From the NCBI RefSeq assembly GCF_016924755.1, contig NZ_JAFFJX010000005.1, positions 186,001 to 250,000 of the forward strand: a DNA stretch of 64,000 nucleotides, in the 5' to 3' direction. This DNA comes from Longitalea arenae (GTDB taxonomy: Bacteria > Bacteroidota > Bacteroidia > Chitinophagales > Chitinophagaceae). Under the pieces are notes generated by a model. That model was not told the DNA's origin. It saw only the letters and a program-made list of their open reading frames with translations, and did no database searches. Within the stretch, counting starts at the first letter, position 1; the number at the start of each line of letters is the position of its first letter. Position numbers and translations under genes: made by a program. Shown piece by piece: positions 1 to 21,687 of this stretch.

Positions 1-710
1 AATTTGGCAAATTCCTTTTTCAATTCTTCAGCGCCTATTTTCACCCGGTCGGCACTGCTGCCATAACTGAGCTCTGTCTTGCCTTGCGCCAATTGCTCAA
101 ATATGCTTTCGATGAATGGACCAACAGCCGGTGCATGATCATGCAGGCCTTTGCCGCCGAGGTCGGTATTCAATGCCGGTGGCACAATTTCCACTACGTT
201 GATGTTGCGGTCTTTTAAGAGATAGCGGAGCGAGTGGGTAAATGATCTGAAGAAAGCTTTTGTAGCCGAATACACGGGCACTTTCGCAAAAGGCGAAATG
301 GCCAGTCCGGAAGTTACATTCATAATCGTATCCAATGCAGGCAGTTTCATGAACAGCGATATGAGGTGCAGGGGCGCTTCAATATTGATAGCGATCTCCT
401 GCCGGGCCCGGGTAAAAAAGTTTTCATCTGTGGGCGACATCCAGTTTTGAATACCGGCATTGTTCACGAGTACATTCAGATCATTGTGTTCGGCAGCCAC
501 CCATTGGTACAGGGCTTCTCTTTCAGCCACATTTTCCAGGTCGCATTTTCTGGTAATTACAGCCGGATGGCGGGCGGTTAATTCCTGTAATACATCTTCC
601 CGCCGCCCACAAACGATCACGGTATGTTTTTCTTTTAATAAGCGTTCAACAATGCCCAGTCCGATACCGGATGCGCCACCGGTCACAAGTATTTTACTAT
701 TAGGTTTCAT
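1..710 (-). CDS. SDR family oxidoreductase, DltE-like (3' end outside window)
   Basis: Classical NAD(P)-dependent short-chain dehydrogenase. The reading frame runs from ATG at 710 off the left edge, so about 236 residues are visible and the C-terminus is missing. The Rossmann motif TGGASGIG lies at residues 10-17, NNAG at 83-86, and the catalytic triad reads S134, Y147, K151 (context VYSATKAFF). The sequence resembles the COG3967/DltE-like group of small cytoplasmic SDRs; the substrate cannot be read from sequence. It lies downstream of an AraC-type regulator on the same strand (93 bp gap), and that gap carries two direct repeats which look like the regulator's sites. A near-consensus -7 box (TACCTTTA, 751-744 minus) precedes the start. 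Confidence 0.9.
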   Translation of the reverse strand, partial: MKPNSKILVTGGASGIGLGIVERLLKEKHTVIVCGRREDVLQELTARHPAVITRKCDLENVAEREALYQWVAAEHNDLNVLVNNAGIQNWMSPTDENFFTRARQEIAINIEAPLHLISLFMKLPALDTIMNVTSGLAISPFAKVPVYSATKAFFRSFTHSLRYLLKDRNINVVEIVPPALNTDLGGKGLHDHAPAVGPFIESIFEQLAQGKTELSYGSSADRVKIGAEELKKEFAK

Positions 711-770
711 GTTCAGGTATTTTTTACTTCATTAATTGAAGTGTAAAGGTAGCAGGGAGCGGAGTGGGGA

Positions 771-807
771 ATTTGCAAACAACAATCCAATATTTGCAAA
801 AATCAAA
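771..807 (-). promoter_or_regulatory. candidate AraC-type operator: two direct repeats 21 bp apart
   Basis: ATTTGCAAA occurs at 771-779 and again at 792-800, a start-to-start distance of exactly 21 bp (two helical turns), typical of AraC-family half-site pairs. The right copy extends to ATTTGCAAAAATCAAA (792-807) and overlaps the stop codon of the regulator gene. The pair lies about 60-95 bp upstream of the SDR start, a position suited to activation. The long form recurs just upstream of the regulator's own ATG (1742-1757). Confidence 0.6.
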
Positions 808-1732
808 CCTTATCTAATTGTTCGCGGAAGGGGTTTGGCGAAAGGCCGGTATGTTTACGGAAGAAATTGCTGAAATGCGCCAGCTCTTCAAAACCCAGAC
901 ACCAGGCGATCTCAGAGATATTCCAGTTGGTATGCCGCAGCAGGATCTTCGCTTCCTGCAGCACCCGCTGGCTAATGATCTCGCTGGTGGTTTTGCCCGT
1001 TGATTCTTTTAATGCCTTATTTAAATAATTGACATGAACTGATAACCTGTCGGCATATTCGCCCGGCGTGCGCAGTTCCAGTTGCTGGTATAAGGTTTCA
1101 ATGGGGAATTGCCTTTCGAGCAGTTCAATGAACAATGAAGCAACACGGTCAGCCGCGGTATGAGCGGTTGGCAGGGTAGAAGCGGGTTGTAACTTTTGTC
1201 CGTAATGGATCAATTCCATCAGGTAATTGCGCAACAGATCGTATTTATAGGCGTAGTCGGAAGCCAGTTCTTTCATCATCTTTTCAAAGATGTAAGCTAT
1301 TTCCGCATATTCTTCATTGGTGAGCTGAAAGACCGGGTAACCGCCGGGTTTAAAAATAGGCAGTTCATCCAGTACGATGCCGTTTTTGGCCGATGTAAAA
1401 TAGGTATCGGTAAAAATGCAGAAAAAGCCTTTCTGATTATCGTTTTGCGGAACATAGTGATAGGGAATGCGCGGTGTACCAAACAGGAGAGCGCATTTTT
1501 CAATTTCAATCACTTTATCGGCATATTCCACATGGTTACGCCCGTTTATCAAACTGATCTTATAATAATTCCGCCGGTTATAGGGCATAACGCCTTTAGT
1601 AGCGCGAACCCGGGCAATGAACTCATCGATCCTGAACACATTAAAATGGCCTACCGCTTTATCAATGCCGTCGGGCATATTGGCGGAAATGCTTTTATAA
1701 AACGCTGCCAGGGTCTTTACTTCTTTGGCCAT
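803..1732 (-). CDS. AraC family transcriptional regulator
   Basis: DNA-binding regulator of about 309 residues. The C-terminal 100 residues form the AraC double helix-turn-helix: the first helix pair lies around the segment with YLNKALKEST, and the second around NISEIAWCLGFEE followed by HFSNFFRKHTGLSP, the usual family signature. The N-terminal 180 residues fit a cupin-like sensing domain of unknown ligand. The frame can be extended to a TTG at 1756, but ATG at 1732 is preferred because the upstream stretch is a repeated operator-like sequence. It is followed on the same strand by an SDR gene, the probable target. Confidence 0.9.
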   Translation of the reverse strand: MAKEVKTLAAFYKSISANMPDGIDKAVGHFNVFRIDEFIARVRATKGVMPYNRRNYYKISLINGRNHVEYADKVIEIEKCALLFGTPRIPYHYVPQNDNQKGFFCIFTDTYFTSAKNGIVLDELPIFKPGGYPVFQLTNEEYAEIAYIFEKMMKELASDYAYKYDLLRNYLMELIHYGQKLQPASTLPTAHTAADRVASLFIELLERQFPIETLYQQLELRTPGEYADRLSVHVNYLNKALKESTGKTTSEIISQRVLQEAKILLRHTNWNISEIAWCLGFEELAHFSNFFRKHTGLSPNPFREQLDKV

Positions 1733-1741
1733 ATACCGGGA

Positions 1742-1758
1742 ATTTGCAAAAATCAAAT
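1742..1758 (-). promoter_or_regulatory. candidate autoregulatory site of the AraC regulator
   Basis: ATTTGCAAAAATCAAAT at 1742-1758 repeats the 16-bp sequence found at 792-807 upstream of the SDR gene. It ends about 10 bp before the regulator's ATG, where a bound protein would block transcription or translation of its own gene. No second half-site 21 bp away is visible here. Confidence 0.5.
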
Positions 1759-1811
1759 ATACATAAAGTTTCTGACGGCGCTATGGGCTATGGCTGTGGC
1801 GGTATTCCGGC

Positions 1812-2357
1812 TTATTGGATCGGTTCGTAAATAAGCTGCACCACACCCGATTTGAAGGTGTTGGCTTTGAGCAATCTTAATGCTAACCGTTCCTGAAGAT
1901 CTTCAAATAAGGGTTTGCCGGTGCCCAACACGGTTGGATGAACGGATAATCTATATACATCAATAAGCCCTAATTGAATAAAGGTTTTGATGAGTTTTGC
2001 GCCACCGTATAACCAGATATCTTTTCCGCCCTGTTTTTTGATCTCATTTACCTCAGTGGCAATATCAGCACTGATGTAAGTGGCTTTGCCGCCCTCTTTG
2101 TCCTGGGCGGAAAAAACATACTTTTTTTTGGCGTGGATCGCTTCCCAGATCGCTTGTTCTGCAAGAGGCGCATTACTGGCTGGCTGATAATTGCCCCAGG
2201 CATCATAACTTACCCTGCCATAAAAAATGGTGTCGATACCAGATAAAAAGCCATTAAAGTCCATATCCTCATCCATGATACACCAGTCAATTTCACCTTT
2301 GGGGCCTTCTATAAATCCATCCAGGGTCACTGCCAGGTCTAAAATTACTTTTTTCAT
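1812..2357 (-). CDS. dihydrofolate reductase family protein (RibD C-terminal-like)
   Basis: 181-residue cytoplasmic reductase of the RibD_C/DHFR fold, related to YyaP/YwjB-type proteins. The N-terminal strand with TLDGFIEGPKGEIDW, the FYGRVSYD segment and the glycine-rich IWLYGGAKLI near residue 118 are typical NADPH-binding features of the family. Homologs are usually annotated only as dihydrofolate reductase family, so true DHFR activity should not be assumed. It is 39 bp downstream of an aldo/keto reductase on the same strand, and the two probably form one transcript. Confidence 0.88.
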   Translation of the reverse strand: MKKVILDLAVTLDGFIEGPKGEIDWCIMDEDMDFNGFLSGIDTIFYGRVSYDAWGNYQPASNAPLAEQAIWEAIHAKKKYVFSAQDKEGGKATYISADIATEVNEIKKQGGKDIWLYGGAKLIKTFIQLGLIDVYRLSVHPTVLGTGKPLFEDLQERLALRLLKANTFKSGVVQLIYEPIQ

Positions 2358-2396
2358 GCCGTTTATTATTTGTGAGGTATTTAATAAGTGGGTATA

Positions 2397-3434
2397 TCAC
2401 AGGCAGGTATACGCTGCACTGATCAATCCTTTTGAGCGCAGGGTCTGCCAGAATGCAGCGGGGATGCCGGCATTCACCAGGTCCACATTTTGTTTCACCC
2501 TCGCCGGGTTGGTCGTGTTGAGGGCCAGGCTGCCTACTCCGGGCGCACTGAGGCTGAAACGGGCGCAGGCTTCCGCCGGCTTTACCTTAAACTGGTTGCA
2601 TATCTCAAAGAACTGCTCGCGCCAGGCAAAGATCGCTTTGTTCTCTTCGGTATCTGGGTGGATCAGCTTATAATCGTAATGGGTACCCCCCATTAAAAAG
2701 CCTGCATGAAAAATGGCTGAATTGATAATGTACACGCCTTTGTTTTTTAACTCTTCCATAAAGGCCAGCAACTCTGCGGGATGATAGTGGATGGTCATGC
2801 TGTTCGCGATCATTACCCAGTCGAACTCAACATCCGCCGCAATTTTTTGTATAATGCGCCAGTTCTTGGCGCCCACCCCAATGGCCTGTACTTTTCCCGC
2901 CGCTTTAAGCTCGCTCAAAGCTTTGTAGGCATCGAGGATATCCTGGTACAGCTTTTTTTCTTCCGTTGCATTGGCGGCGGTAGCGAGGTATTCATCAGGA
3001 TCATGTACAGAAACCATCTGTGGATTGTATCCACCCAGCAATTCATTACCCTGTTCATAACATTCAATGATGCCGGTATAACTTATTTTTTGTACGGCAT
3101 CGTACTGCAGGTTTTTCCATACACCCGGTTCAAAGCTTGGTTCCGGGGTGGTAAGCGGCACCCGGTACCAGCCCAGTTTATTACTGATGACCACAGCTTG
3201 TTGCGGAACCTGCAGGGTGCGCAAACAGCGGCCGATGGTTTCCAATGCCAGTCCGGCGCCATATTTTCCGGCAGAATCAAATACCGCCGGTACGGCAGAT
3301 TGCGTTACACTTTCTTGTACGATCTGGAGTTTGATCTCATCATCGAGTGCGGTAAACAGATTTCCCAATCCACTTGTGCCGAATATGACCTTCGGTAAAT
3401 GCAAACCCATTGCTGCCAGTTTATTGTGCGCCAT
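2397..3434 (-). CDS. aldo/keto reductase
   Basis: 345-residue NAD(P)H-dependent aldo/keto reductase with a (beta/alpha)8 barrel. The catalytic tetrad is readable: D53 and Y58 (FDSAGKYG), K86 (ISNKLGWY) and H144 (VSVHDPDEY). The overall pattern is closest to the D-threo-aldose/L-fucose dehydrogenase-like branch, so a sugar or small aldehyde substrate is plausible but not shown. It is first of a two-gene unit with the RibD-like reductase at 1812-2357. Upstream of its start (3435-3540) no regulatory element was recognised. Confidence 0.9.
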   Translation of the reverse strand: MAHNKLAAMGLHLPKVIFGTSGLGNLFTALDDEIKLQIVQESVTQSAVPAVFDSAGKYGAGLALETIGRCLRTLQVPQQAVVISNKLGWYRVPLTTPEPSFEPGVWKNLQYDAVQKISYTGIIECYEQGNELLGGYNPQMVSVHDPDEYLATAANATEEKKLYQDILDAYKALSELKAAGKVQAIGVGAKNWRIIQKIAADVEFDWVMIANSMTIHYHPAELLAFMEELKNKGVYIINSAIFHAGFLMGGTHYDYKLIHPDTEENKAIFAWREQFFEICNQFKVKPAEACARFSLSAPGVGSLALNTTNPARVKQNVDLVNAGIPAAFWQTLRSKGLISAAYTCL

Positions 3435-3583
3435 TAATATTCAGGTGTTTTATTTCTATTAAGCGATGTGCCCAATCCTTTTTTGCGAAAATACGGCTCG
3501 GCGTGCAATAAAAAAGTTTCCTGGCAAAATGCATTGATAAAAATCACCTTTGAATACGTAGGAGAACTGGCTATATAAACTAA

Positions 3584-3614
3584 AAAGGGTGAGCTGTTAT
3601 CTGGCTCACCCTTT
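3584..3614 (-). terminator. intrinsic terminator of the secreted beta-helix gene
   Basis: Perfect 11-bp inverted repeat AAAGGGTGAGC / GCTCACCCTTT with a 9-nt loop, located 5 bp past the stop codon of the gene that ends at 3619. Read on the minus strand it is followed by TTTTTAG, which fits a rho-independent terminator. Confidence 0.85.
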
Positions 3615-3618
3615 CTCT

Positions 3619-5724
3619 TTACCGCTTCAACAATTTGATCACTTCATTCGTTTTCGATCCCTTTATTTTCAGGAAATACAGGCCCGGCTTCAGCGCCAGT
3701 GGCGAAAGGTTCAGCGGTTTCAAATTACCGCCGGTAAAAGGATGTCTGGCTTTATACAGTAATGTGCCTGATTCGCTCAGCAGTTGTACTTCTACATCCT
3801 CATTGCTGAATGTACTGCCAGTCAGTCCTCTCTTTTGAATATACAATTGGTTTTGTAATGGGATGGGAAAGGCAAGCAGGCGGTTATTGCCAGTCACCGG
3901 TGCTTCGGTTTGGCTTAGTAACTGCCGGGCGGCTGAATGGGCAGCAGATTGTACAATGGCAATGCCATTGATCTGCGGATTACCTGTTACGGCTGCAAAA
4001 TCAAGATCGAGCACCCCATCATTCACCGTCACTAAAATAATTTCTTTATGCGCATTGCGATAGCCGGCAGCTGCGTAAATATCGAAATTATCGAGGCGAA
4101 CAGCGCCTTCAGCGCGCACATCAAATACCCGTAGTCCGGAAGCCTGGTTCGTGTTCTCGGCAAAGTACAAGCGCACTTCATAGGTTCCATTGCTTACTGG
4201 AAAATTATAGCTTACCTGGGTTCCACCGAAAGAGGCATAGCGGTTCGTGCTGAAGATTTGTGAGGGCGCATCCGTGGTATTCGTTCCATTCCATGGCTGG
4301 TCGCTGCCCGTAGTATAATTGGAAGAAGCAGGATTGAGCCAGGGACAGGGATCTGTTTGTTTATCTTTGTGCCAGGCAATAGGCGTGCCGGGCACTTCAA
4401 GGCCACCTGCATTAACGCGATATAACACAGTGTCTGCCGGTGCACCCTGGAATTCATAAGCGCCCGCATCATAAGCAGCTACTGGTCGGGTCAGGTTCTC
4501 AAAATCGAAGGGGATAGTAAATCCGGTAGGATTCACCCCCGCATTTATAGCCACTGAACCCGGCAGCAGATCATAATTACCAGCAGCGGCGTTTTCAAAA
4601 TTAAATGGTGCTGCAGTCGTTCTGATCACATTGCCGCTGACGACCATGGTGCCGCTCATTCTGTCGAATGCCGTATCGGTGGCCGTACGTACAATGGCAT
4701 TGTTTTGAATGTAGGCGGTGCTGGCAACGGTTGGGTCAAAGCGGATGACCGGCTGGGTATTGCTGCCCATCAAAATGGTGTTGTTTACGTAATAGAAATT
4801 TTTTCCGGCTTCGGAGGTGGGGTGACCGCTGTAAATGGCCATCTCACCGGGATTAACGATCACATTATTGTACACATAAACATTTCCCACGCCCAGGACC
4901 GTTATGCCATTCGCCAATGGGTCTTCTATATAGTTATTGTAAAATGAGCCGGAGAAACCATTTCCCAATTGTACGCCGCTGCGCTGGTTGGTTAAATTTA
5001 AAAGGCCGGGATCAATAACCCGGTTATTATAGATCCTGGCTTTTCCCGAATACGTGCATCCTACCTGTATGCCTTCGCGGCCGGTACGTTCGGTGATATT
5101 GTCATAGAGTTCCAGGGTGTCGATGTCATGTTGATTGCCATCTACAGCCCAGTTGAACTGTCCTATATAAAAACCCTCTCCGGTCCGCTGGTCATGCATG
5201 TAATTATGGTGGAATCTTACATTGCGCATCACAAAGGGGCCCCGGCCGGAATTATCTGTTTTAGCCATAATGCCGGCGAAGCCGGAGTTTTTGATCTCGA
5301 TATGATCTACTTCAAAATTGGTGCTCTGGGCTTCCAGCTGCATACCCTGTGCAGCGCTGTCTACTACAATACCATACTGGTCGCTGCTGCCGGTGCCGGT
5401 GATGCGGAAATATTTCGACCCCTGGAATTTGATGCCGTAAGAGAGACCGGAAGCCAGCCTGAAGGTGACCTTTCCACCGCAATTGATAAATACAATGGGA
5501 TTGTTGTGCGAACCAGTCACGTTGGTGATCAACAGATTTCTGGTACGGATACCTGCCTCCAGGCATACTGTATCACCCGGCTGTACCGAGGATGCATTGA
5601 AAGATTGCTGCGTAAGGGGGATGGTAACAGCGCAATTACAGTTCTGCGCATACGCCGTTCCAGTACACAGCAAACCAGCCAGCAAGGTTATGCCGGCATT
5701 TCTCCACGTAAATTTCCTTGACAT
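3619..5724 (-). CDS. secreted parallel beta-helix / malectin protein with T9SS tail
   Basis: 701-residue exported protein. Residues 1-26 are a signal peptide ending in TAYAQ. Residues about 30-425 carry repeated Asn-rich short turns (YNNRV, YNNYIED, YVYNNVI) typical of right-handed parallel beta-helix proteins that bind or cut polysaccharides. Residues about 434-598 match a malectin-like carbohydrate-binding domain (YRVNAGG at its start, AGYRNAHKEI later). The last 80 residues match a type IX secretion type A sorting domain (GLYFLKIKGSKTNEVIKLLKR). No catalytic residues could be assigned, so lyase or hydrolase activity is only a possibility. It is a single gene closed by a strong terminator. 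Confidence 0.85.
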   Translation of the reverse strand: MSRKFTWRNAGITLLAGLLCTGTAYAQNCNCAVTIPLTQQSFNASSVQPGDTVCLEAGIRTRNLLITNVTGSHNNPIVFINCGGKVTFRLASGLSYGIKFQGSKYFRITGTGSSDQYGIVVDSAAQGMQLEAQSTNFEVDHIEIKNSGFAGIMAKTDNSGRGPFVMRNVRFHHNYMHDQRTGEGFYIGQFNWAVDGNQHDIDTLELYDNITERTGREGIQVGCTYSGKARIYNNRVIDPGLLNLTNQRSGVQLGNGFSGSFYNNYIEDPLANGITVLGVGNVYVYNNVIVNPGEMAIYSGHPTSEAGKNFYYVNNTILMGSNTQPVIRFDPTVASTAYIQNNAIVRTATDTAFDRMSGTMVVSGNVIRTTAAPFNFENAAAGNYDLLPGSVAINAGVNPTGFTIPFDFENLTRPVAAYDAGAYEFQGAPADTVLYRVNAGGLEVPGTPIAWHKDKQTDPCPWLNPASSNYTTGSDQPWNGTNTTDAPSQIFSTNRYASFGGTQVSYNFPVSNGTYEVRLYFAENTNQASGLRVFDVRAEGAVRLDNFDIYAAAGYRNAHKEIILVTVNDGVLDLDFAAVTGNPQINGIAIVQSAAHSAARQLLSQTEAPVTGNNRLLAFPIPLQNQLYIQKRGLTGSTFSNEDVEVQLLSESGTLLYKARHPFTGGNLKPLNLSPLALKPGLYFLKIKGSKTNEVIKLLKR

Positions 5725-16040: not shown

Positions 16041-16494
16041 ATGCAGCCCGCCTCGGTTAATGTAAAACAACAGGCAATAAAAAATCCTATACCAGTATAC
16101 ATTTCCACATTGGAAAGTAAACTATGGGTAAACCGATGGGCAGATTGAAACTTCTTTACTAACAGTTTATACCATCGATCGCATGAGCGGCATGGCGCCC
16201 GACGGGTAGCGCACCCGGTCTGTTGTAAAAGTTCGGGCGGTGCTTGCGGGGTGGCTGGGGTAACCAACGGCCTTGCCCATCCCGAAGTTGAACCAACAAC
16301 TTTCAATTTTTCATTTGATTGTGAATACCTTAATGGAAAAGCCTTACTGGTAGGGTTCTTGTAGCGGTTACACATATTTTCTATCGTTACAGGAAAGCTT
16401 GTGGATGCACATCCATTTTTCGGGGAATGTAGAACCACAGATGAGGAATGTTCACGGTGGCATAATTTTTCATACATGAATAGAAAGTTTGACT
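16041..16494. other. gene-free stretch downstream of the GH65-like gene
   Basis: About 450 bp. One minus-strand open frame (16001-16477) overlaps the end of the GH65-like gene and shows no family resemblance, so it is treated as spurious. No terminator hairpin was identified. Confidence 0.5.
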
Positions 16495-16707
16495 ATGGAC
16501 AAAAGGGATTTAAAAAAGGATTTAAACAAAGACCGTCAGCAGCTTGAAGAAGAAAAGGATAATACTGTTTCGCAACCCGATCCTGAAACACTTCACAAAA
16601 CAGATCCTCAGGAGAATATGAAGGGGCCCGTTAGTTCCCTGGTGAACAAGGCGAAGGATAGTGCTGAGGAAAACGATGAAGAAGACAATAGGGATAAAGA
16701 TGAATAA
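16495..16707 (+). CDS. small, highly charged hydrophilic protein (70 aa)
   Basis: ATG at 16495 opens a 70-codon frame; the alternative TTG at 16489 adds two residues. About half of the residues are D, E, K or R, with no hydrophobic core, a lysine-rich first half (KRDLKKDLNKDR) and an acidic tail (ENDEEDNRDKDE). The protein is probably intrinsically disordered; such proteins are often stress-related, but nothing here proves it. A clear terminator follows 47 bp after the stop. It is the last gene before the polysaccharide leader. Confidence 0.7.
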   Translation: MDKRDLKKDLNKDRQQLEEEKDNTVSQPDPETLHKTDPQENMKGPVSSLVNKAKDSAEENDEEDNRDKDE

Positions 16708-16753
16708 AGCGTTCAGACAGTAGTTGTTCTAAATACACATAATATAAAAAAGG

Positions 16754-16779
16754 GCTATCAAAATTTGATAGCTTTTTTT
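16754..16779 (+). terminator. intrinsic terminator after the small charged protein gene
   Basis: Stem GCTATCA / TGATAGC with a 5-nt loop followed by seven T. It separates the small gene from the polysaccharide locus leader. Confidence 0.85.
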
Positions 16780-16841
16780 ACCGGCAGTTCAAACAAACAA
16801 AGCACAGCTATAATATAGTACCTCATTTAAACAAATTAACG

Positions 16842-16976
16842 ATGGCACAAATGTTACATTTTGAAGTATCATACAGCAAAATACCTTCGGTGGATTTGAA
16901 TTTCACTGGTGAATTGATCGCGGAAAAGTTTTTATTGAAAACGTGCATTATTGAAGAAAAAACGTTACAATTGTAG
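16842..16976 (+). CDS. possible 44-residue protein of unknown function
   Basis: ATG GCA CAA at 16842 opens a 44-codon frame ending TAG at 16974-16976 (start MAQMLHFEVSYS, end EEKTLQL). It is preceded by an A-rich stretch typical of starts in this group, and lies between the terminator at 16754 and the repeat-rich leader. No family is recognised. It could be a remnant of a longer gene or a chance frame. Confidence 0.35.
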   Translation: MAQMLHFEVSYSKIPSVDLNFTGELIAEKFLLKTCIIEEKTLQL

Positions 16977-16989
16977 CCTGAATTATTTG

Positions 16990-17060
16990 GTGGTATTAAA
17001 TAAATATCTTTAATTTTGAGTGATATTCATGAGCGGTAAGTTCAATATAATTAATACCAC
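16990..17060. repeat. 10-bp inverted repeat at the head of the leader
   Basis: GTGGTATTAA (16990-16999) and TTAATACCAC (17051-17060) are perfect complements 51 bp apart. They frame an AT-rich segment with TATCTTTA at 17005-17012, which resembles a -7 box. This may mark the promoter region of the polysaccharide locus, with a site for DNA inversion as an alternative explanation. Confidence 0.4.
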
Positions 17061-17099
17061 AGCGCTTGTCGAATGAGTGTAATAAGTTGATTCCTGTTG

Positions 17100-17290
17100 A
17101 TGTCATTCTTTTCTTTCGTGCTTATTTTTCTATCCAATTATTCTTGCTAATACTTTCATCCATTATCCAAACATAGTGATGTCGGAAATGTCTAAATCTC
17201 ATTAATACGGGATTATGATTGGCGGAGCCCTTGTTTGAGCAGGACCTTTTGTGTAAGAGCCAGTGAAGCGTTGATGAAAACCGGGTAGTC
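17100..17290 (+). repeat. leader element, copy A
   Basis: First of three diverged copies in the leader. A pyrimidine-rich stretch (TCATTCTTTTCTTTCG, CTATCCAATTATTC, CCATTATCC) leads into TAAATC and then GATTATGATTGGCGGAGCC ending at 17229, followed by GTGTAAGAGCCAGTGAAGC. The element is bracketed by TTTCATC (17154-17160) and GATGAAA (17273-17279). It contains a 7-codon frame from ATG at 17214 (MIGGALV). Confidence 0.7.
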
Positions 17291-17304
17291 TTAAAAAAAA
17301 TCTT

Positions 17305-17460
17305 TGTGTTTATAACGAGTATTCTCTTATCCTCTTTCGGTCCCCTTATTCTTTCATAATGTTAACCTTTAGTAGCTAAATCCAGCATAATGGGATTTTG
17401 ATTGGCGGAGCCGTAAGTGCGAGTGTAGCAATGAAGCCATAATGTAAAGGTTAATGAATT
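17305..17460 (+). repeat. leader element, copy B
   Basis: Pyrimidine-rich lead, then AGCTAAATCC and GATTTTGATTGGCGGAGCC ending at 17412, then GCGAGTGTAGCAATGAAGCC. It is bracketed by TTAACCTTTA (17362-17371) and TAAAGGTTAA (17445-17454), a perfect 10-bp inverted repeat. A small hairpin TTTAG-tag-CTAAA lies at 17368-17380, and would compete with the outer stem. Confidence 0.7.
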
Positions 17461-17651
17461 GGTTAAGCGCTCTGTTGCCCTGGAAAGCAACCGGTTTAAA
17501 AATTAGTTCGTAAACACATTAAAACAACCAATTCTGATTATTACTGACTCCCTGATATTGTAATAATTGAAAAAAAACAACCAGCGATTTTCTTTTTATT
17601 CCGTATACCTTACTCTATTGAATAAAACAGACTCCATTCAATTAGTTCTTT

Positions 17652-17820
17652 AGTTTCATTCTTCTTTCGTTTCTACATCCATTATTCATGGTAATTCTTT
17701 CTCTATCCATTATCCAATTACACTATTTCGTTTACGGCTAAACCCGTAATGGATTTTCATGACCGGAGCCAGCCCTGTACGAATGAAAGCGCAATAGCCA
17801 ATGTAATGGCTACACGAAAA
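17652..17820 (+). repeat. leader element, copy C
   Basis: The lead closely parallels copy A (TTCATTCTTCTTTCG, ATCCATTATTC, CTATCCATTATCCAA). It is followed by GGCTAAACCC and GGATTTTCATGACCGGAGCC ending at 17770, then GTACGAATGAAAGC. It is bracketed by TTTCGT (17726-17731) and ACGAAA (17814-17819), with a hairpin GTTTA-cggc-TAAAC at 17730-17743 and a second, AGCCA/TGGCT, near 17797-17812. Confidence 0.65.
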
Positions 17821-17860
17821 CCTGCCCCTGTTTATAGCGTATGTTTTTACTTAATCCAAA

Positions 17861-17891
17861 ACTAAATCATGGGATTATGATGGGCGAAGCC
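17861..17891 (+). repeat. fourth match of the leader element, over the upxY start
   Basis: ACTAAATCAT followed by GGATTATGATGGGCGAAGCC (17872-17891) repeats the core of copies A-C. Here the core contains the tandem ATG codons at 17877 and 17880 that start the antiterminator gene, so the repeat is coding (MMGEAF). Confidence 0.7.
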
Positions 17892-18446
17892 TTTGCACAC
17901 AAAAAAGAAGATCCGAAAGCAGTAAAGAAATGGTATGCTGTATATACACATGCCAAATGGGAAAAGAAAGTTGCCTCCTTATTTACCCGCAAGAACATTG
18001 AAAATTATTGTCCCCTCAACCGCGTGCTGCGTCAATGGAGCGACCGCAAAAAAATTGTGTATGAACCCTTGTTTACCTGTTATGTATTTGCCCGCGTAAC
18101 GGAGAAAGAGCGAATAAGTGTATTGCAAACGGATGGCGTTCTCAATTATGTTACCTGGCAGGGTAAACCGGCTGTTATCCGCGACTCTGAAATAGAGGTG
18201 ATCAAAAATTTCCTGCTCGAACACAGCAATGTAAGACTCGAGAAAATTGATGTGGACGTAAATGACAGGGTGCGCATTAAATGCGGCCTGTTCATGGAAC
18301 AGGAGGGGTTGGTAATGGAAGTACTCGGTAAAACAGTGCGGGTTTGCTTGCCAACGCTCGGATATGCCATGCTGGCCGAAATACCAAAGTCGCACGTTGA
18401 GGTGGTAGACAGCAAAGCGAGGGGAGATGAACATTTAATTTCCTAA
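17877..18446 (+). CDS. UpxY-family transcription antiterminator (NusG paralog)
   Basis: About 189 residues. The NusG N-terminal domain starts with KWYAVYTHAKWEKKV and includes YCPLNR and the loop with YVFARV. The C-terminal KOW-type domain spans about residues 130-180, with NDRVRIKCGLFMEQEGLV. In Bacteroides, UpxY proteins bind RNA polymerase and prevent early termination in the leader of their own capsule locus; the position here, first in a long collinear polysaccharide locus behind a 0.9-kb leader, fits that role. Start: the frame opens at ATG 17841, but ATG 17877/17880 is nearer the family start and lies in the repeated element. The export gene follows 17 bp downstream. Confidence 0.93.
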   Translation: MMGEAFAHKKEDPKAVKKWYAVYTHAKWEKKVASLFTRKNIENYCPLNRVLRQWSDRKKIVYEPLFTCYVFARVTEKERISVLQTDGVLNYVTWQGKPAVIRDSEIEVIKNFLLEHSNVRLEKIDVDVNDRVRIKCGLFMEQEGLVMEVLGKTVRVCLPTLGYAMLAEIPKSHVEVVDSKARGDEHLIS

Positions 18447-18463
18447 TTAATATATATATTACC

Positions 18464-19297
18464 GTGAAGTCACTGCACCCAAAAAACAAAACCTTAATTC
18501 ACAGCAAGCCGCCGGGGCGGCTGTTCAATGAAACCTGGCTATGGATGGTACTGCTGGCCGGCGTCTTATGTGCATCCTGTACGAACACAAAGAAAGTGGT
18601 ATACTTTAATGGTATCAGCGACACAGAGATCAGTAATGCCATTGACAATCTGGAGCCTGTTATTCAAAAGAACGATCTGCTTAGTATTACTGTAAGCAGT
18701 CCGAATGCAACCGCCAGCCAGCCTTTCAATACAGCAGTAACAGTATCTACCCAGGCGATAGGATACACCTCCACCCAGGCAACCGGCTACCTCGTTGACC
18801 AGGATGGTTTTATCGACATGCCGATGCTGGGCAGGATCAAAGCGGCCGGTTTAACTAAAAAAGGCCTGAAAGAAAGTATTACAAAGGTTATTACCGACAA
18901 CAAATACCTCTTGTATCCGGTAGTGACCGTTCGTTACCTGAATTTTAAAGTAACGGTGCTCGGCGAAGTTGCCAAACCGATGGTGATCAATGTGCCTGAC
19001 GAAAAGATCAACATTCTCGAAGCATTGGGCTTTGCAGGAGATATGACCGTGTATGCGCGGCGTGATAATGTTACTTTGATCAGGGAAGAAAAAGGATCGA
19101 GGATCGTTAAAAGGCTTGACCTCAATTCAGGCAACTTGTTATCCTCGCCCTACTATTACCTCAAGTCGAATGATATTCTTTACGTAGAACCCAATAAACA
19201 GAAAGTTGCCACTGCTGGTAACACCCGAATTTGGCTGCCGGCTATTTTGAGTGCTCTTTCACTGGCAGTTGTGATTATTGATCGATTAACAAGGTAG
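18464..19297 (+). CDS. polysaccharide export lipoprotein, Wza/BexD-like
   Basis: 277 residues from GTG at 18464, the only start leaving a usable signal sequence; the lipobox is LCASC near residue 39. The poly-export domain (residues about 60-160) contains DLLSITVSS and the segment VDQDGFIDMPMLGRIKAAGLT, followed by an SLBB-type domain with VTVLGEVAKPMVINVPDEKINILEAL. The C-terminal hydrophobic helix (WLPAILSALSLAVVII) is typical of Bacteroidota homologs. It would form the outer-membrane exit for the polymer together with the Wzc-like kinase encoded 2 bp downstream. Confidence 0.94.
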   Translation: MKSLHPKNKTLIHSKPPGRLFNETWLWMVLLAGVLCASCTNTKKVVYFNGISDTEISNAIDNLEPVIQKNDLLSITVSSPNATASQPFNTAVTVSTQAIGYTSTQATGYLVDQDGFIDMPMLGRIKAAGLTKKGLKESITKVITDNKYLLYPVVTVRYLNFKVTVLGEVAKPMVINVPDEKINILEALGFAGDMTVYARRDNVTLIREEKGSRIVKRLDLNSGNLLSSPYYYLKSNDILYVEPNKQKVATAGNTRIWLPAILSALSLAVVIIDRLTR

Positions 19298-19299
19298 AT

Positions 19300-21687
19300 A
19301 TGCAAACTAACAAAAAATCAGGCAATGAAATGAACATCGTTTCAGTTGCCATCAACTGGTACCTGCCATACTGGCCATTGTTCGTTCTGTTGATCATTAT
19401 TGGCCTTGCAGGCGCATGGGCTTATCTCAAGTATTATGCTACTCCTGTTTATGAAACGTATGCGACCATCATGGTAAAAGACGAAAAGAAGGGAGTGGAT
19501 GAATCAGGTGTACTGGAAGCCCTTCAGATCTATCCCACAAAGAACATTGTTGAAAATGAAATGGAGGTCATTCACTCCAGGAAGTTGATGGAAAAGGTGG
19601 TGGACCAACTACAGTTGTATGCGCCCATCTATGAAGCCCCTTATAAAGGGAAAATGAAAGCTACTTCTGCTTACACGAGTTCGCCTATTACTATTTCTGT
19701 AAAAGATCCCCAGGAACTGAAAGAAACGGGCGAGCTGGATGTGCCTATTTCAGTTACTTATTATAACGACAATAATGCCGGGGAATTTAAGGGCCTTTAC
19801 ACAGGAAAGCCCAAGGAAGTAGTTATTGATGGCAAAGTGTATCCATTGGAAAAATGGTGCTCGACCCCATATGGTGAGCTGAAATTTGATTACAACGAAC
19901 GGCTGGCGGAACCGGCAAAGGGGCCATTGTTCTTCCGCCTGTATAAACCAAAAAATATAGCGCCCAGTTTCATCAGCAATCTGGAAGTTCGCGCGGCCAG
20001 TAAGTTATCTACCACCATCACGCTGGTATTCAAAGATGAAGTGCCTCAGCGCGGGGAAGATATTTTGAACAAATTACTGGTAGCTTATAACCTCTTATCG
20101 ATAGAAGAAAAGAAGGGAACTGCTTTTAATACGCTCGAGTTCATAGAAAGCCGGTTAATAAAAGTTGAAAGGGAACTGGACTCTATCGAGAATAAGATCC
20201 AATCGTTCAGAACCAGAGAAGATGTGGTGGATCTTAGCCAGCAAAGCAAACAGTATCTGGATAATGTGGGCAGCAACGACCGTAAGATCGCCGATCTGAG
20301 CATGCAGTTGGCTGCTTTGGACGAGATGGAACGTTATGTTAAATCCAACAAAAACAATGCAGACGATGTGCCTGCCGCAGTGGGTATCAACGATCCGCTA
20401 TTGAGTGACCTGATGCAGAAATTATATAATGCCAAAGTCGAATACGGTAAGCTGATGAATACAACTGCCGAGAACAATCCATTCGCTTTAGCAGTTGCCA
20501 AGGAAATTGAACAAACGCGCCCGCTCATTCTTGAGAAATTAAGATCACACCGGATCAACCTGGAAGCCAGCAAAAAAGACCTTACCGCCATTAGCGGTAA
20601 CTATAATTCCATGCTGCGGTCCATTCCCCAGAAAGAAAGGGACCTGATGAATATCAGTCGTGAGCAGGTGATAAAGAAGAGTATCTATAATTACCTCCTC
20701 GAAAAAAGGGAGCAAACGGCGCTGGCCAGTTCATCTGCCGTTTCCGACAGCAAGATCATCGATTATGCAAAGTCGAACCTTACGCCCGTAAGTCCGAAGA
20801 AGTCGCTGGTTTATTTTGCGGTGCTGGCCGGTGCTATCGGTTTGGCCATCGGGTTGGTATCAGCCCGCGAAATGCTGAACAAGAAGATCCTGTTCCGCTC
20901 TGAAATAGAATCTCTCACTTCGGTTCCGGTGATCGCAGAACTTGCGGCCAATAAAGAAAATGAATCCCTGATCAAGTCGGGCTCCAAAGTATCAGTGGTA
21001 GCAGAACAGTTCAGGCACCTGCGGGCCGCCATCGGATTGATCGGCCGGCAAAAAGAAATGAAAGTGAAGCGGATCCTGATAACCTCCAGCATTTCTTCAG
21101 AAGGAAAGACCTATATAAGCACCAACCTGGCCAGAAGCCTGGCCCTGGCGGGCAATAAAGTGGTGTTGGTTGACCTCGACATCCGCAAGCCAAAAACATC
21201 TACGATCATGGGTGTGGTTGATAAACCAGGTGTAGCCGATTTCCTGGAAGGAACAAAAGAGCCGGAAGAGATCATCGGCAGCAGCATGGATTCGAATTTA
21301 TACATTGTGAGCGCCGGCAGCGGCATAGATAATGCCAGGGAGCAGATATTGAGTGGCCGGTTGAGTGTTCTGCTGAACTACCTCAATGCCAATTTCGATT
21401 ATGTGATCCTGGATGCCTCACCCATTGACCCGGTATCTGATTCTTATGTATTGTCTGATTACTGCGATATAACCCTGTTTGTAATGCGGCATGGACGCAC
21501 ACCTAAAGCCATGGTGCAGATCCTTGACAATAACAGCAAATTCAAGGCACTGAAAAATCCGCATATCGTCTTTAATGGCATCCGCTCGAGGGGCATTAAA
21601 GGTATGTATGGTTACAGCTATGGTTATGGCTATGAAAACGTATACCGCGAAAAGCCGAGCAGGAAATCAAAATTGCAACGGGTATAA
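19300..21687 (+). CDS. polysaccharide co-polymerase / tyrosine autokinase, Wzc-like
   Basis: 795-residue inner-membrane protein that sets chain length and couples polymerisation to export. Residues 23-45 form the first membrane segment, and a long periplasmic region with coiled coil (about 270-450) follows. The second membrane segment lies near 500-520 (VYFAVLAGAIGLAIGLV). The cytoplasmic BY-kinase has Walker A at about 597-605 (SSISSEGKT), Walker A' as VVLVDLDIRKP, and a C-terminal tyrosine cluster GMYGYSYGYGYENVY as the phosphorylation site. No Wzb-type phosphatase gene is in the window, so it must lie elsewhere if present. It is the third gene of the locus. Confidence 0.95.
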   Translation: MQTNKKSGNEMNIVSVAINWYLPYWPLFVLLIIIGLAGAWAYLKYYATPVYETYATIMVKDEKKGVDESGVLEALQIYPTKNIVENEMEVIHSRKLMEKVVDQLQLYAPIYEAPYKGKMKATSAYTSSPITISVKDPQELKETGELDVPISVTYYNDNNAGEFKGLYTGKPKEVVIDGKVYPLEKWCSTPYGELKFDYNERLAEPAKGPLFFRLYKPKNIAPSFISNLEVRAASKLSTTITLVFKDEVPQRGEDILNKLLVAYNLLSIEEKKGTAFNTLEFIESRLIKVERELDSIENKIQSFRTREDVVDLSQQSKQYLDNVGSNDRKIADLSMQLAALDEMERYVKSNKNNADDVPAAVGINDPLLSDLMQKLYNAKVEYGKLMNTTAENNPFALAVAKEIEQTRPLILEKLRSHRINLEASKKDLTAISGNYNSMLRSIPQKERDLMNISREQVIKKSIYNYLLEKREQTALASSSAVSDSKIIDYAKSNLTPVSPKKSLVYFAVLAGAIGLAIGLVSAREMLNKKILFRSEIESLTSVPVIAELAANKENESLIKSGSKVSVVAEQFRHLRAAIGLIGRQKEMKVKRILITSSISSEGKTYISTNLARSLALAGNKVVLVDLDIRKPKTSTIMGVVDKPGVADFLEGTKEPEEIIGSSMDSNLYIVSAGSGIDNAREQILSGRLSVLLNYLNANFDYVILDASPIDPVSDSYVLSDYCDITLFVMRHGRTPKAMVQILDNNSKFKALKNPHIVFNGIRSRGIKGMYGYSYGYGYENVYREKPSRKSKLQRV

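Follow-up and report, generated by a model that had tools for sequence, protein, structure and literature searches.

A conserved stem-loop element in the leaders of upxY polysaccharide loci and its likeness to ops

The ops element of Escherichia coli is the 12-mer GGCGGTAG, and a consensus pause is written G-11 G-10, Y-1 G+1. The ops/RfaH system is the closest described counterpart of the element reported here; in the accessible text of Zuber et al. 2018 (PMC5995543), where the 8-mer core of ops also occurs, it is a leader element of long surface-polysaccharide operons with targets in trans. Of the NusG paralogues, E. coli RfaH was described in 2020 as the only one whose recruitment is known in detail (PMC7593976, accessible part). 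Operon choice by NusG paralogues other than RfaH is an open question, which the element described below addresses.

The UpxY proteins of Bacteroides capsule loci belong to the same family (NF033644) as the protein considered here, and reportedly were the subject of work by Chatzidaki-Livanis in 2009 and 2010 and by Saba et al. in 2024. Bacteroides UpxY is reported to recognise a paused polymerase via exposed non-template DNA and the upstream duplex DNA. We know of no common element for the Bacteroides UpxY loci, whereas here a single consensus runs across genera other than Bacteroides and also occurs away from upxY. According to the accessible part of PMC7819879, UpxY keeps transcription from ending early in the leader of the locus that encodes it, and the protein is also treated in the available portions of PMC7593976 and PMC12632263. 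LoaP is a further NusG paralogue that works with a leader hairpin (PMC12691694, accessible part), but its hairpin is an RNA hairpin of another kind. No shared upxY element of the present type was found in the open-access literature, a scope that leaves out Saba et al. 2024.

Element copies and leader of the window

The window is the 64-kb stretch of Longitalea arenae DNA that was analysed, and the features of its upxY locus are listed in Table 1. The 19-mer GATTNTGATTGGCGGAGCC matches at 17211-17229 and 17394-17412 with no mismatches and at 17873-17891 with two, giving three matches against 0.05 expected, a number reached in none of 100 shuffles. A first-pass annotation of this DNA had described an element recurring near 17229, 17412 and 17770; the first two sites (copies A and B) are intact as described, but the site near 17770 (copy C, GGATTTTCATGACCGGAGCC) has more than three mismatches from the 19-mer and therefore stands only as a decayed copy. 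The stem of copy C no longer folds in this genome, whereas L019, a close relative, has an intact copy C. The fourth match noted earlier, over the upxY start codon, was confirmed, with the tandem ATG at 17877/17880 falling inside copy D.

Table 1 Features of the upxY locus in the window
Feature	Position	Strand	Basis or remark
Promoter-like TTTG-N21-TAATTTTG, presumed Bacteroidota type	16986..17018	+	16980-17019 identical in L019
Pyrimidine-rich, G-poor block before copy A	17100..17180	+	Composition; 95-100% identical to L019 in 20-nt steps, 17100-17179
Element copy A	17205..17229	+	Stem-loop GGC-GGA-GCC at 17221-17229
Pyrimidine-rich block before copy B	17320..17360	+	17320-17359 95% identical to L019
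Element copy B	17388..17412	+	Stem-loop GGC-GGA-GCC at 17404-17412; model R1 match E 1.18
Pyrimidine-rich block with repeat ATCCATTATYCA before copy C	17640..17719	+	Repeat families; 95-100% identical to L019
Decayed element copy C	17750..17770	+	Stem lost here, intact in L019
Element copy D	17867..17891	+	Stem-loop GGC-GAA-GCC at 17883-17891; includes upxY start codon
upxY, NusG paralogue (UpxY family)	17877..18446	+	NusG Pfam and NF033644 matches, structure model
Poly_export/SLBB polysaccharide exporter gene	18464..19297	+	Follows upxY in presumed operon
Wzz/tyrosine-kinase-type gene	19300..21687	+	After exporter gene in presumed operon

Each intact copy (A, B and D) has a conserved 10-mer and then a terminal GGC-GRA-GCC, which makes a 3-bp stem with a GNA triloop. 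The 3' halves of the window copies, GGCGGAGCC and GGCGAAGCC, give a perfect stem that is predicted to fold both as DNA and as RNA, and the gain in folding of such 9-mers over shuffles is modest (z about -1.8). Copies A and C, for which an alignment of about 170 bp had been claimed, align over approximately 200 nt, pyrimidine-rich lead included, at a score of 126.5 against at most 74 in 200 shuffles. The B-C alignment is weaker (97.5, best shuffle 79), A-B is barely over its best shuffle (90 and 83.5), B-D equals it (73 and 72.5) and A-D is inside the shuffle range (54 and 68); the likeness of copy D to the other copies is limited to about 25 nt, the element alone. A dispersed repeat was considered and rejected, as the degenerate 19-mer has four exact matches in the 7.28 Mb genome (A, B, D and one unlinked site on contig C12) and five at two mismatches, with the backward control giving one of each. 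A known RNA family was likewise set aside, with no match at E ≤ 1 to 4227 Rfam models over window positions 16400-18600.

The leader would be about 850 nt long if the promoter-like sequence is used; its TTTG-N21-TAATTTTG pattern, which we take to be the Bacteroidota-type promoter consensus, has three matches in the window against 2.1 expected by chance and is weak when taken alone. The pyrimidine-rich leads reported earlier were found again, with G making up 11% of 17100-17210 and 8% of 17600-17740. Identity between the window and L019 is 87% in the four elements and 76% in the remaining leader, and since several of the pyrimidine-rich blocks are 95-100% identical, and so conserved at least as well as the elements, they are probably functional too, possibly as a site for Rho or another RNA-binding factor. 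Repeats similar to ATCCATTATCCA lie in the pyrimidine-rich blocks (17100-17719) ahead of each upstream copy and are kept strongly in the lineage of the window only, and CTATCCATTATCCA has one exact occurrence in the genome, in the window leader. Pyrimidine-rich, possibly Rho-loading, blocks were rejected as a general part of the element, as C exceeds G before it in eight leaders of the window lineage and not in 82 others. Intrinsic terminators between the copies were also rejected, there being one weak candidate (17732-17749) and two in the region against 1.4 in shuffles.

Ten distinct members of the window's upxY lineage were examined, and each has two to four copies at 15 or more of 22 matches. 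The last copy includes the start codon in five of them (the window, L019, L020, L025 and L102) and lies upstream of it in the other five. Judged from these leaders, D is the last leader element, turned into the upxY start in part of this lineage, and A to C are extra copies retained in one upxY lineage. Two other paralogue lineages have one stem-loop each, GGC-GGA-GCC in nine of ten members and AGC-GGGA-GCT in ten of ten.

The element and the UpxY protein across upxY loci

A total of 140 upxY loci was gathered, and 108 unique ones remained once loci with an identical 300 nt at the start of the gene had been removed; close relatives were kept. Similar elements were sought upstream of these genes, and of the 107 unique leaders that were long enough, 79 have the core GCGNAGC no more than 160 nt 5' of the conserved Trp codon. 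The minus strand gave 0/107, 100 shuffled sets gave a mean of 1.67 and at most four, and nine other windows of the same loci gave one to six of 78-108. With variant loops allowed, credible elements are present in 90 of the 108 unique leaders, although the credibility score draws on the upstream 10-mer and on pairing and is therefore not an independent test; no credible element was found by score in the other 18, three of which (L023, L024 and L027) have one by eye. The consensus is approximately TGTRACTGAGNTNGGCGRAGCC, with a spacer that varies in length by one base.

Named records in the leader set include Niastella, Longitalea, Flavisolibacter, Pontibacter, Segetibacter and Chitinophaga, and of the last two named, L036 has a GGC-AGA-GCC variant and L098 the standard stem-loop. 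The three other upxY genes of this genome have related elements 29 to 89 nt 5' of the nearest ATG, one of them with an AGC-GGGA-GCT stem. Among the 83 leaders with an in-frame ATG, the element lies 5' of the nearest one at a median of 36 nt. Tandem TAACTGA repeats (PMC4679880, accessible part) share their heptamer with 19 of 90 elements; they were rejected as relatives, being tandem arrays in which no link beyond the heptamer was seen.

Pairing was analysed in an alignment of 65 elements that had been selected because they pair. Here the inner three pairs are complementary in 195/195 cells, with both sides changed in ten, and a fourth pair forms in 37 of the 65. None of 500 shuffles reached the covariation score or the percentage paired of these four pairs; the number of pairs changed on both sides was matched in seven of the 500, and the number of pair types is ordinary (262/500). 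In sites not selected for pairing, the outer pair is Watson-Crick in 75/82 near upxY versus 41/108 elsewhere in the same loci. The loops belong to the GNA triloop class in 80 of 92 elements (mostly GAA, GGA, GTA and GCA), and GGGA and GCTA tetraloops also occur. The consensus-pause pattern fits 34 of the 92 (shuffled mean 8.4, most 15) and is therefore not a general feature of the elements.

The first-pass annotation had called the element unlike ops in sequence, and this does not hold, as its core GGCGRAGCC resembles GGCGGTAGC, the core of E. coli ops. Both are small hairpins in which a C-G pair, present as the inner pair in 65/65 elements here, closes a loop whose first base is G and whose last is A. 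The differences are that the core sequence GGCGGTAG is not found, the loop of the window copies being one base shorter, and that a GNA triloop or a GGGA/GCTA tetraloop takes the place of the GGTA loop of ops. The flipped T6 of ops is absent save in two GCTA and four GTA loops, the present element has its conserved upstream 10-mer, and its proposed factor is usually encoded in a target operon.

That factor, like RfaH, is a NusG paralogue. The upxY product of the window has a NusG domain (Pfam NusG, 1.4e-17) and matches the UpxY family profile NF033644 at 6e-40 with 136.9 bits, above the cut-off of 100; against the RfaH profile TIGR01955 it scores 56.1 bits, under the cut-off of 144.5. Its structure model has a mean pLDDT of 80, and the NGN domain has the RfaH fold, superposing on RfaH chains at 1.7-2.6 Å over 94-99 columns, and full-length superpositions are poor. 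Unlike RfaH, UpxY has a C-terminal domain modelled as a beta-barrel (pLDDT blocks 71-83, tail 39), and RfaH-like autoinhibition was set aside on this model, with which a fold switch remains compatible. The positions by which RfaH contacts ops are basic in the UpxY rows (K10 in 105/107, Q24 in 95/107, R23 in 68). The residues of the T6 pocket are not kept, H20 being Leu in 74 and R73 Asp in 61 of the 107 rows, so that the base read-out must differ from that of RfaH. The alignment suggests that UpxY would read a similar hairpin with another base read-out, and the GAA and GGA loops are likewise without T6.

Distribution of the element and siting at operon heads

A covariance model trained on upxY leaders (R1; its E-values are rough) was run on the 7.28 Mb genome, and all four upxY leaders are among its five best matches, three of them having been in the training as they stand and the fourth via a relative-free variant of its own. 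The fifth is the unlinked site C12:29686 (E 0.067), outside the training. Copies B and A, also outside it, were matched at E 1.2 and 9.5, neither significant alone, and copy C was not found. Ten genomes of the genus gave 54 matches, 35 of them within 300 nt 5' of upxY, eight at 301-900 nt and 11 unlinked. In 147 genomes of the family there were 135 matches, of which 47 lie within 300 nt 5' of a listed upxY, seven at 557-630 nt, one downstream of upxY, and 80 are unlinked with respect to a upxY list that stops at weak matches, so that some may be linked, as L271 proved. About 15 chance matches are expected from the E-values, and one was seen in the 27 genomes without upxY.

Among the Chitinophagaceae the element (E ≤ 0.1) is present in 81 of 120 genomes with upxY versus 1 of 27 without (p 3.5e-10; seven of the 27 inferred from numbering), and when the latter are limited to those having Poly_export genes the comparison is with 1 of 22 (p 1.9e-8), p-values and counts of co-occurrence here and below ignoring shared ancestry. 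A draw of 296 genomes from the class gave 35/113 with upxY versus 2/183 without, and outside Chitinophagaceae the figures are 29/106 versus 2/182. Three genomes without a detected upxY have the element (G090, G309 and G382). In G090, a good element heads a sugar-nucleotide gene group (L347, contig C35), and no upxY was found at E 1e-20; this genome may carry a divergent UpxY.

An element at all upxY genes of Bacteroidota was rejected, as few of 30 class-wide loci (one being this genome's own) show one 5' of the gene, clearly in L159, L173 and L179 and possibly in L155. R1 detects the element in more class genomes than this 30-locus look, and some of its sites fall immediately 3' of upxY. Sites of this kind, in families of the class other than Chitinophagaceae, lie before the next gene (G288:C12, G195:C22, G222:C1, G299:C9 and G211:C21).

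Forty of the 80 unlinked elements were viewed, in score order with G003:C40 skipped, and 39 lie outside any ORF longer than 450 nt. The first same-strand gene downstream is of polysaccharide type in 26 of the 40 (L296 and L299 below the Pfam cut-off), with Poly_export in 18 and an ABC exporter ATPase, epimerase, flippase-type or Wzz match in eight. It is a NusG paralogue in one (L271) and neither upxY nor of polysaccharide type in 13, namely an integrase in three, a gene with no Pfam family over the cut-off in five, a type I restriction R subunit in one, which lies 1.6 kb off behind reverse-strand ORFs, and an IS200 transposase, RraB/DUF695, aldose epimerase and methyltransferase in one each. 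Among the 150 Poly_export places listed, one lies within 2.5 kb on the same strand downstream of at least 22 of the 80 unlinked elements and upstream of none; 142 of the 147 family genomes have any Poly_export gene, with one to nine per genome.

Where element and upxY are 557-630 nt apart (seven loci), a single other ORF separates them in every case, and the three scanned encode a hexapeptide transferase, a 23S rRNA intervening-sequence protein and a product without a Pfam match. In three genomes (L343, L344 and L345) the intervening ORFs resemble one another, being 177-181 aa long and HTH-like by eye, and that of L344 has no Pfam match. Elements also lie 5' of tyrosine-recombinase genes in L289, L293 and L298 (G118, G154 and G050). 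G154 has six elements, none adjoining its upxY, and one of five examined precedes a Poly_export gene.

Proposed function of the element

The element is probably an ops-type recruitment signal for UpxY at the heads of surface-sugar operons, in cis and in trans. The loading or pause role that the first-pass annotation had suggested is supported, at the level of sequence, by the core 5' of most upxY genes, the covarying stem, the co-occurrence with upxY and the siting at operon heads. We infer the pause, the capture of UpxY by the hairpin and the read-through from what the accessible texts say of RfaH (PMC5995543) and of UpxY (PMC7819879). RNA polymerase coming from a polysaccharide promoter would slow at the element, with the TGTRACTGA part as upstream duplex and a non-template strand on which the exposed GGC-GNA-GCC would fold to a mini-hairpin. 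UpxY would grip this hairpin, then travel with the polymerase and carry it past leader stops and along the operon, acting in cis beside upxY and in many relatives in trans at other operons. The several sites in the window leader would therefore offer several chances of capture for a polymerase not yet modified.

A wider proposal, to which we give an even chance, is a second ops system in Bacteroidota. Its code would be TGTRACTGA, a short spacer and GGC-GNA-GCC, with a UpxY-type read-out by contacts other than those of RfaH, and it would mark polysaccharide operons and, in some genomes, integrase loci in trans. Lineage variants would serve as addresses (GGGATTATGAT with a GRA loop, TGTAACTGAGTTG with a GGA loop and TGTGACTGAGGGA with AGC-GGGA-GCT), and the modules of pyrimidine block and element in the window would be serial checkpoints where a paused polymerase faces either termination or capture by UpxY. 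A shared element would be a concrete, testable signal at many UpxY loci, from which UpxY regulons could be predicted from sequence. The lineage-specific variants would form a natural data set for the protein-DNA code, and a hairpin that resembles ops but differs from it in loop and in factor is relevant to the question of descent or convergence.

The same loading role could be served by the element in nascent RNA, with UpxY or a partner binding an RNA hairpin as for LoaP, where the dfnA leader hairpin is taken as the signal (PMC12691694, accessible part). The stem also folds in RNA, slightly more stably in most of ten cases, and the commonest fourth-pair combination is G-T (20/65), which could form a G-U pair in RNA. 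However, ops, to which the core is similar, acts as non-template DNA according to the accessible text of PMC5995543, the stem is merely 3 bp with the fourth pair in little over half of the aligned elements, and the conserved upstream 10-mer has no evident pairing partner, which fits duplex DNA. The non-template DNA hairpin is favoured over an RNA hairpin, and we regard the RNA form as doubtful.

It is more improbable still that some other factor (Rho, NusA, a ribosomal or an RNA-binding protein) uses the element as a pause or RNA signal and that the element is linked with UpxY only indirectly, through polysaccharide operons. Elements at operon heads without a nearby upxY and in the three genomes without a detected one would agree with this, and the conserved pyrimidine-rich blocks suggest more factors at the locus, but the element is nearly absent from those family genomes that have Poly_export genes and lack upxY. 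Decayed, functionless duplications of the upxY 5' end, the alternative offered in the first-pass annotation, would account for the start codon in D and the lost stem of C but can hardly be right, given that D resembles the other copies over its element alone, all ten lineage members keep several copies, and the element is a non-coding leader sequence upstream of the ATG in most relatives, with the start codon included in part of one lineage, and also heads operons without upxY.

The recruitment signal proposed here may have a trans target in this genome, as C12:29686 is possibly a target of the window's UpxY lineage. This site (L017, 5687-5717, with relatives L228-L231) repeats the copy D 19-mer exactly at a place with no upxY near it, and its DNA and element are kept in five of ten genomes of the genus. 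Some 160-190 nt downstream of the site begins a gene of 417 aa that has a weak secretion-tail match. Another genome of the same genus (G005:C3; L233, 1876-1906) has a window-type element 5' of a Poly_export gene without an adjoining upxY.
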